Source of the DNA: Fusobacterium mortiferum ATCC 9817
Lineage (GTDB): Bacteria > Fusobacteriota > Fusobacteriia > Fusobacteriales > Fusobacteriaceae
DNA length: 64,000 nucleotides
Assembly (NCBI RefSeq): GCF_000158195.2
Contig: NZ_GL987993.1
Location: 147,102 to 211,101, forward strand
Direction of reading: 5' to 3'
Part shown: piece after piece, positions 38,201-38,487 of the stretch
Layout of the letters: each line of letters begins with the position of its first letter
Position numbering within the stretch: position 1 is the stretch's first letter
The notes under the pieces: generated by a model
What the model was told of the DNA's origin: nothing
Databases searched by the model: none
What the model saw: only the letters and a program-made list of their open reading frames with translations
Program-made: the position numbers and the translations under genes

Positions 38201-38232
38201 ATAAAACCTCCCCTTAGTATAAAATTATAAAT

Positions 38233-38298
38233 AAAAAAACCAGCTATAATAGCTGGTAAATTTTACAAAAGAAAAGCCAATAGATAAACTATTGGCTA
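38233..38298 (-). terminator. Tandem terminator hairpins in the antiporter leader
   Basis: On the minus strand, AGCCAATAG/CTATTGGCT (9-bp stem, 38275-38297, followed by TTTTCTTTT) comes first. ACCAGCT/AGCTGGT (38239-38257, followed by TTTTTTT) comes second. Both lie upstream of the antiporter start and so would block it unless bypassed. The 5' arm of the first can alternatively pair with 38352-38357. Confidence 0.8.
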
Positions 38299-38371
38299 AA
38301 TAAACAAAATATGCTCATAGAGTGGTACTCTAATCTTTACAAAATAAGACCTAGCCATAATTAAAAATATA

Positions 38372-38410
38372 TTAAATTATAATTATAATATGTCTTTGCC
38401 TTAATTTCAT
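38372..38410 (-). CDS. Putative 12-residue leader peptide rich in isoleucine
   Basis: The frame reads MKLRQRHIIIII and stops. AGGGAG lies five bases before its ATG, and the promoter is about 30 bases upstream. Two Arg codons (AGG, AGA), a His codon and five consecutive Ile codons precede the stop. Such runs mark leader peptides that sense charged-tRNA levels. It is too short for homology evidence; the case rests on position, ribosome site and the stems downstream. Confidence 0.45.
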   Translation of the reverse strand: MKLRQRHIIIII

Positions 38411-38440
38411 CTTTCTCCCTCTCTAAAAATAATATGTTTA

Positions 38441-38469
38441 AGTATAAAGGAAAAAGATTAAAATGTCAA
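38441..38469 (-). promoter_or_regulatory. Promoter of the antiporter-argH operon
   Basis: On the minus strand: TTGACA (38464-38469), 17-base spacer, TATACT (38441-38446). This is close to consensus and gives a leader of about 230 bases. Confidence 0.8.
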
Positions 38470-38487
38470 TAAAAAATTACACTTGTA

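Follow-up and report, generated by a model that had tools for sequence, protein, structure and literature searches.

What controls arginine supply in bacteria without a detectable ArgR, and what is a twelve-codon reading frame doing between a promoter and two terminators ahead of one of their arginine genes? The window, a stretch of 64,000 nt from Fusobacterium mortiferum ATCC 9817 (contig NZ_GL987993.1, positions 147,102 to 211,101), raises these questions at 38201-38470, where a leader on the minus strand, directly behind an OmpA-family gene with its end at 38488, precedes an operon of an antiporter-family transporter gene and argH. A preliminary description, made from the sequence, had proposed a peptide-coupled transcription attenuator there, with arginine or, failing that, isoleucine as the amino acid sensed. 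The answer favoured here, with a probability of about 80%, is that the leader from 38434 to 38201 is a predicted arginine-sensing transcription attenuator for antiporter and argH.

The leader and its operon

The promoter, ribosome site and 12-codon frame of the preliminary description are present as it had them, as are the complementary UGGCUA and UAGCCA and the two terminators (Table 1). Read as motifs in the sequence, they come in the order of an attenuator: promoter, short frame with its ribosome site, terminator, operon. Transcription would start near 38434 and the frame, whose arginine codons sit in the stretch AGG-CAA-AGA, would be translated. Among the seven aligned loci of the genus, the window's own included, TTGACA is kept in six, with TTGATA in L004.

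Table 1. Features of the leader and of the operon behind it (positions in the window; all on the minus strand)
Feature	Position	Strand	Remarks
Sigma-70-type promoter, TTGACA-17-TATACT	38441..38469	-	11/12 consensus positions; TTGACA 38469-38464, 17 nt, TATACT 38446-38441
Ribosome-binding site AGGGAG	38415..38420	-	from the sequence
Leader peptide frame MKLRQRHIIIII	38372..38410	-	ATG at 38410, 12 codons + TAA; Arg = AGG (codon 4), AGA (codon 6)
Arm 1, AAGAC, within the Arg codon stretch	38392..38396	-	weak pairing with 38350-38346, by eye
Arm 1 partner, GUCUU	38346..38350	-	by eye
Arm 2, UGGCUA, predicted antiterminator 5' side	38352..38357	-	folding and genus alignment
Element AAAGAUUA-hairpin-UAUGAGCAUA	38310..38338	-	between the arms; recurs in other Arg leaders, stem covaries
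Arm 3, UAGCCA, predicted antiterminator 3' side and start of terminator 5' arm	38293..38298	-	sequence, folding
Predicted intrinsic terminator 1, 9 bp	38275..38297	-	terminator scan; arms invariant in 7 aligned genus loci
Predicted intrinsic terminator 2, 8 bp	38239..38257	-	terminator scan
Na+/H+-antiporter-family transporter	36725..38200	-	PF03553
argH, argininosuccinate lyase	35297..36715	-	TIGR00838, 614.4 bits against a cut-off of 279.5

Two terminators were found in the 1,301 bases scanned against 0.5 expected from shuffles, and the fold of the leader, at -51.1 kcal/mol (z = -4.0), was equalled by none of 200 shuffles. A 9-nt complement to the terminator arm has p = 0.010 in the window leader under base shuffling, which is weak by itself because the same test falls below 0.05 in only three of 24 leaders. 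No known riboswitch or T-box family of Rfam, nor any other Rfam cis-regulatory family, matches the leader, either at the gathering score or, in a search that took in 18 loci, up to E = 0.5.

A second, overlapping frame, MARSYFVKIRVPLYEHILFI, lies at 38296-38358 with its AUG within arm 2, and re-initiation there would cover that arm. It is open in the window's genome (G000) and in G003; it was set aside, being closed by a stop after three codons in G007, G009 and G010. A tRNA cluster at 39412-39935, upstream on the opposite strand, includes tRNA-Arg(UCU) and tRNA-His(GUG).

As to what stands behind the leader, orthologs of the antiporter (identity of at least 66%) occur in 15 of the 61 family genomes, the window's own included, with argH next in 14 of the 15 loci and the fifteenth at a contig end; a pattern search of the contigs for antiporter relatives matched 110 stretches, none of which was confirmed. 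An ArgR regulon would need ArgR to be encoded in the genome, and the ArgR model (PF01316) was passed in none of the 61 (G049 has a single match below the cut-off) and in eight of 14 control genomes. Within the genus, one of 12 genomes (G001) passes the cut-off for ornithine carbamoyltransferase, a relative in the window's genome reaching 150.7 bits against 280.85, and none of the 12 passes that for arginine deiminase (a weak match in the window's genome has 21.6 bits against 489.1), by a model that only one of the 14 controls passed. With argG and argH present and these two enzymes below their cut-offs, arginine would come from imported citrulline. Gene content thus suggests arginine synthesis from citrulline, and the antiporter may be a carrier of citrulline or of arginine.

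Lysine riboswitches of Rfam (RF00168) lie upstream of paralogous transporters in relatives (L046, L050), and a similar sequence was seen by eye in L047-L049, L051 and L055. The likeness is that RNA controls a transporter, one about 34% identical to the antiporter; the lysine riboswitch, however, is an aptamer without a leader peptide, and the window leader gives no match to it.

Arginine codons in leaders of the genus and family

Among the 12 genomes of the genus (own included) the leader recurs at 82% identity in G002 and G003 and as a shorter match in G007-G010, and six other genomes thus retain the frame, the arms and the terminator. The peptide is MKLRQRHIKIQI in G002 and G003, and in G007-G010 it is MLLRHERHGISNL, MLLRRERQGISKL or MLLRRESQGISNL, with the shared pattern MLLRxExxGISxL. 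Arm 2 reads UGGCUA or UGGCUG in all seven aligned loci. The genus alignment thus bears out the preliminary description in that arginine codons and arms are kept, whereas the isoleucine run and the histidine are not; it falls short in that arms 2 and 3 are nearly unvarying and therefore yield no covariation evidence. The AAGAC/GUCUU pairing that it had also claimed exists and is weak: by eye, only four pairs including a G-U remain in G003, and in G007-G010 a different pairing replaces it. The attachment of leader to genes has some latitude. In G003 the leader stands immediately before argH, the antiporter being absent; in G002, where no argG passes the cut-off, it persists before a truncated argH; and in G001 an argH 96% identical is without it.

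Beyond the genus, leaders before argH or antiporter-argH are dissimilar and again have arginine codons: MLNIRTRRIRIKF... (G033), MLFTLLRRLKYKN (G035), MLSLFRRNQI (G032), MKTMLLRKQINIK... (G034), MRSRYNLKEGKNK (G039) and MRSRYNFKEEKNK (G038). argH was matched in 44 genomes, several of which show no visible leader (e.g. G001, G012, G049-G051) or have argH behind other genes. In G039 and G038 another Arg frame lies some 2.6 kb ahead of argH, and upstream of one of the two argH copies of G052 is MRKNRMRYRKN (L105, on G052:C7), with four Arg in 11 codons, 349 bases before the argH-side end; it is outside the 32 leaders counted below.

The design also appears before argG, which is over its cut-off in 43 of the 61 genomes. 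All 20 argG loci examined (18 leaders from an automatic listing, two read from printed sequence) have a short Arg frame behind a ribosome site, 17 of them with at least two Arg in codons 2-14. In the window's genome this leader, MLMTTLLRNRKYNTTIYNFF..., is at L129:2703-2816 (G000:C1), before a solute-binding protein and argG, the binding protein being nearest the Lys/Arg/Orn subfamily (TIGR01096) and below its cut-off. A third leader of that genome, MLRNFRIRTNNKKNN..., at L179:543-617 (G000:C5), precedes a permease-ATPase-binding-protein operon, an ABC operon whose binding protein is likewise nearest TIGR01096 and below its cut-off; G005, in which argH gives no match at E 1e-60 and no argG passes the cut-off, has a leader MLRNLRIRKNKQQNN... 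before the same permease (by eye). We therefore read the window's genome as having at least three Arg-codon attenuators. This recurrence of arginine codons in dissimilar leaders before argH, argG and a transporter of Lys/Arg/Orn type upholds the claim of a peptide-coupled attenuator with arginine as its amino acid.

How far does the enrichment go? Every one of 32 leaders has Arg in codons 2-14, 28 of them at least two and four only one, and Arg makes up 18.0% of these codons against 3.9% in window genes, a 4.7-fold excess. The codons of the pathway's amino acid, with argH and argG downstream, are in this way both enriched and conserved. The choice among them is skewed as well. Leader Arg codons comprise 58 AGG, 12 AGA and two CGT (n = 72), and those of 51 frames in the window 60 AGG, 588 AGA and 19 others (n = 667); the second Arg codon of the window leader, AGA, is the common one. 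Collapsed to 18 dissimilar leaders, the set has at least two Arg in 15 and Arg as 41 of 222 residues (against the background of 3.9%), and 30 of the 41 Arg codons are AGG, compared with 60 of 667 in genes of the window (Fisher p = 1e-20). Such p-values are optimistic, and the Arg and AGG figures carry ascertainment, for these are related leaders, some of them picked by eye and one through the AGG pattern. Of the 32 AGG triplets in this collapsed set, 30 are in frame. This bias could be used to test whether attenuators favour the codon whose tRNA is the first to be left uncharged.

A control scan keyed not to Arg but to a ribosome site, short frame, terminator and gene gave, in other loci amounting to 287,932 bases (some fetched through motif patterns), 27 frames, 20 with no or one Arg and seven with at least two, all seven being copies of known leaders. 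At argH, argG and antiporter loci it gave 48 frames (repeats included), 26 with at least two Arg, while missing several leaders, e.g. those before argH in G032, G034, G038 and G039. Of its three frames in the window, two have at least two Arg, the argH leader and a TTG frame, MGRCTRGLVMSTLWCWKR, at 42244 on the plus strand before a terminator; the latter, with two Arg, is probably there by chance. The AGG pattern alone is uninformative because a reversed control gives similar counts (in the window's genome, 82 forward and 20 reverse against 78 and 11); two places that it found beyond the known leaders were followed and one was kept.

Is it the codon or the peptide that matters? A peptide related to orf34, the leader frame of Salmonella speF, senses ornithine. 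Here too a nascent chain with the core L-R-x-R-[K/R/H] might arrest its ribosome on arginine, ornithine or another ligand in the tunnel, with uncharged tRNA playing no part. An R-x-R core does appear in many otherwise different leaders (LRQRH, LRNRK, LRSRR, IRTRR, MRSRY, FRIRK), and orf34 itself has arginine codons in a leader whose peptide core is conserved (PMC6386406). Yet what recurs most is the codon AGG and not a fixed peptide, and some leaders have RR without RxR (MLFTLLRRLKYKN, MLSLFRRNQI) or a single Arg, all of which makes a tunnel sensor improbable. The HIRRT-type core of orf34/SpeFL, taken from the same source (PMC6386406), was seen by eye in none of the 32 leaders.

Between the arms lies the conserved AAAGAUUA-stem-UAUGAGCAUA, which invites the thought that this RNA binds a ligand or protein and that the reading frame is incidental. 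Its sequence is conserved and it is found in leaders of different operons, recurring in the ABC leaders of the window's genome and G005 and, outside the genus, in that before argG in G047, with an altered form in the argG leaders of G007, G008 and G009; the stem covaries, at least five pairs being formed in eight of nine copies compared, with A-U, G-C and G-U exchanges (the G007 argG copy is without it). However, a pattern scan of the fetched loci did not find it in most Arg leaders, Arg codons are in 32 of 32, and Rfam has no match, so that sensing by this element in place of the frame is very unlikely; the two may work together. A pairing of AGCAUA, within the element, with arm 2 was dropped as it fails, by eye, in the ABC leader.

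That the attenuator might answer to isoleucine or histidine was prompted by the five Ile codons and one His codon of the window frame. The comparison goes against both: Ile numbers five, three or one in the argH leaders of the genus, His is missing from two of their five distinct peptides, neither has an enrichment like that of Arg over the 32 leaders (Ile 0.8 times background, His 1.6, Arg 4.7), and argH is an arginine gene. The isoleucine option of the preliminary description is accordingly disfavoured, a sensor of either amino acid having become extremely unlikely. Equally unlikely is that there is no regulation at all, merely a chance frame beside two plain terminators of the OmpA gene that the leader directly follows, for a near-consensus promoter separates that gene from the terminators, frame, arms and terminator are kept in six other genomes of the genus, and at four of those loci (L004-L007) no OmpA gene was found.

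The predicted switch and its precedents

In the proposed attenuator, shortage of arginine would cause a ribosome to stall on the arginine codons of AGG-CAA-AGA, which likely frees UGGCUA for pairing with UAGCCA; with these paired, formation of the terminator would be prevented and transcription would continue into antiporter and argH. When charged Arg-tRNA is plentiful, the ribosome would complete the frame and leave, whereupon the leader would refold, its codon stretch pairing with the surroundings of UGGCUA, and terminator 1, with terminator 2 as backup, would then form.

Two folding models were applied. The first, run on 24 leaders (the argH leader of G035 was not parsed), folds only the RNA ahead of the ribosome; the second, run on the 13 leaders that passed the first, takes in the whole leader and holds a 31-nt ribosome footprint unpaired. 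An automatic search for the arms yielded no useful result in some of the leaders. For the window leader the modelled probability of arm 2 pairing with arm 3 is 0.35 without a ribosome, 0.72 with one at Arg4 or Arg6 and 0.72 at the stop codon in the first model, and 0.42, 0.71 (Arg4), 0.69 (Arg6) and 0.73 (stop) in the second. The predicted antiterminator is thus exclusive of the terminator and favoured by a ribosome, and the contrast is greater in the other argH leaders of the genus that were modelled; in these models, though, the window leader separates only a ribosome present from one absent. Since pairing at the stop codon equals that at the arginine codons, termination would need release of the ribosome before polymerase reaches the terminator. 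Here the geometry differs from that of the textbook attenuator, in which a ribosome at the stop codon precludes the antiterminator.

Position-dependent control comes out clearly in models of relatives, on the argH and argG sides alike. In the first model the argH leaders of G003, G007, G009 and G010 go from 0.00 without a ribosome to 0.66-0.93 (0.85-0.97 at the stop), and the G033 argH leader and seven argG leaders reach up to 0.88-0.99 at Arg. The antiterminator is absent at Arg in nine of the 24, namely the G032 argH leader, the argG leaders of G007, G009, G016, G021, G032 and G037 and both ABC leaders; the G047 argG leader does the opposite (0 at Arg, 0.88 at the stop) and that of G012 is mixed. 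Zeros at the stop codon are partly set by this model because it folds only the RNA ahead of the ribosome, which the second model mends. There, ten of the 13 pass, before argH in G003, G007, G009, G010 and G033 and before argG in G000, G001, G003, G034 and G035, with 0.00 in the absence of a ribosome, up to 0.63-0.99 at one or more Arg codons and, save for 0.37 in the G003 argH leader, 0.00 at the stop codon; the argG leaders of G033 and G030 fail (0.00-0.26 at Arg). At some Arg codons of the G007 and G009 argH leaders the values are only middling (0.23-0.66). Besides the window leader, 13 of the 24 modelled leaders give no support for an antiterminator dependent on the Arg position.

Transcription attenuators with amino-acid leader peptides are of the trp, his, leu, ilv, thr and phe type, and to our knowledge no attenuator of this kind that senses arginine has been described. 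The window leader resembles them in its short frame with codons of the pathway, its mutually exclusive antiterminator and terminator and its intrinsic terminator before the first gene. It differs in that it would sense arginine, in that its two Arg codons (one AGG, one AGA) are set apart and do not form a run, and in belonging to a fusobacterial family without detectable ArgR. In 2010 such attenuators were known only from Proteobacteria and Actinobacteria, to which Firmicutes were added (PMC2965389).

Two leaders with arginine codons come nearer. The frame orf34 of Salmonella speF senses arginine through its Arg codons by ribosome pausing and alternative RNA structures; unlike the leader here it controls ornithine decarboxylase, with Rho and RNase G involved, and it is a conserved peptide family (DUF2618) of gammaproteobacteria (PMC6386406). 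The rbf gene of Staphylococcus aureus has a leader, rbfL, that senses arginine restriction through two Arg codons, AGA and AGG; the outcome is a block of the ribosome site and of translation initiation for a biofilm regulator, and not termination of transcription of arginine genes (PMC13009471).

The novelty claimed by the preliminary description has held up, in that no account of these Fusobacterium or arginine leaders, or of an attenuator of this kind in the phylum, was found among the open-licence papers listed. If the reading is true, arginine would join the amino acids sensed through classic transcription attenuation, and the control of argG, argH and arginine-type transporters would be explained in a family that has no detectable ArgR.

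Another RNA ahead of antiporter-argH in Cetobacterium-type genomes

No Arg leader stands before the antiporter-argH operon of G047 and of eight genomes in group g3 (in G017, argH by itself). The operon carries instead a near-invariant RNA of about 126 nt, with a terminator where this was read; the reference copy is L038:3029-3155. Exact matches to its core, in four Cetobacterium records and one Fusobacteriaceae record, point to g3 as Cetobacterium. Under strict filters, a model of this RNA matches 45 places, spread over four genera and 17 of the phylum's 98 genomes, with up to five per genome.

Its features are those of a riboswitch candidate. CCUAAGG is in all 26 aligned copies, and compensatory changes affect 14 of 32 predicted pairs over these copies, in an alignment fitted to the model. 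Of 30 loci read, 29 have a downstream gene, of three kinds by eye: the antiporter or argH, a hydrolase with an AstE/AspA domain (PF24827, L220) and a membrane protein with a Gate domain (PF07670, L227). That arginine is the ligand is a guess from the genes. Rfam has no match up to E = 0.5 at seven loci, and among the open-licence papers listed there was nothing on it. Claims of fungal arginine riboswitches are insufficiently supported, according to a 2022 review (PMC10043782), and the Cetobacterium RNA, if it does bind arginine, would be the first natural arginine riboswitch.

Could one operon have changed its sensor? Exchange of sensors on a single gene has been described for hisS (PMC2965389). 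The wider conjecture is that arginine supply in the Fusobacteriaceae is run by RNA instead of ArgR, and that the antiporter-argH operon has switched between an Arg-codon attenuator in the Fusobacterium type and, in Cetobacterium, an undescribed riboswitch class binding free arginine; taken whole, it is tentative and, in our estimate, rather doubtful. An attenuator and an unrelated structured RNA on the same operon would be a natural experiment in RNA sensor replacement, and the RNA of the Cetobacterium-type genomes is a candidate riboswitch for which a ligand can be suggested. Before argG, G016, G021 and G047 still have Arg leaders, and both devices therefore stand in one genome. As for riboswitches already catalogued, the window has a ZMP/ZTP riboswitch at 50660-50742 (RF01750, 59.3 bits).
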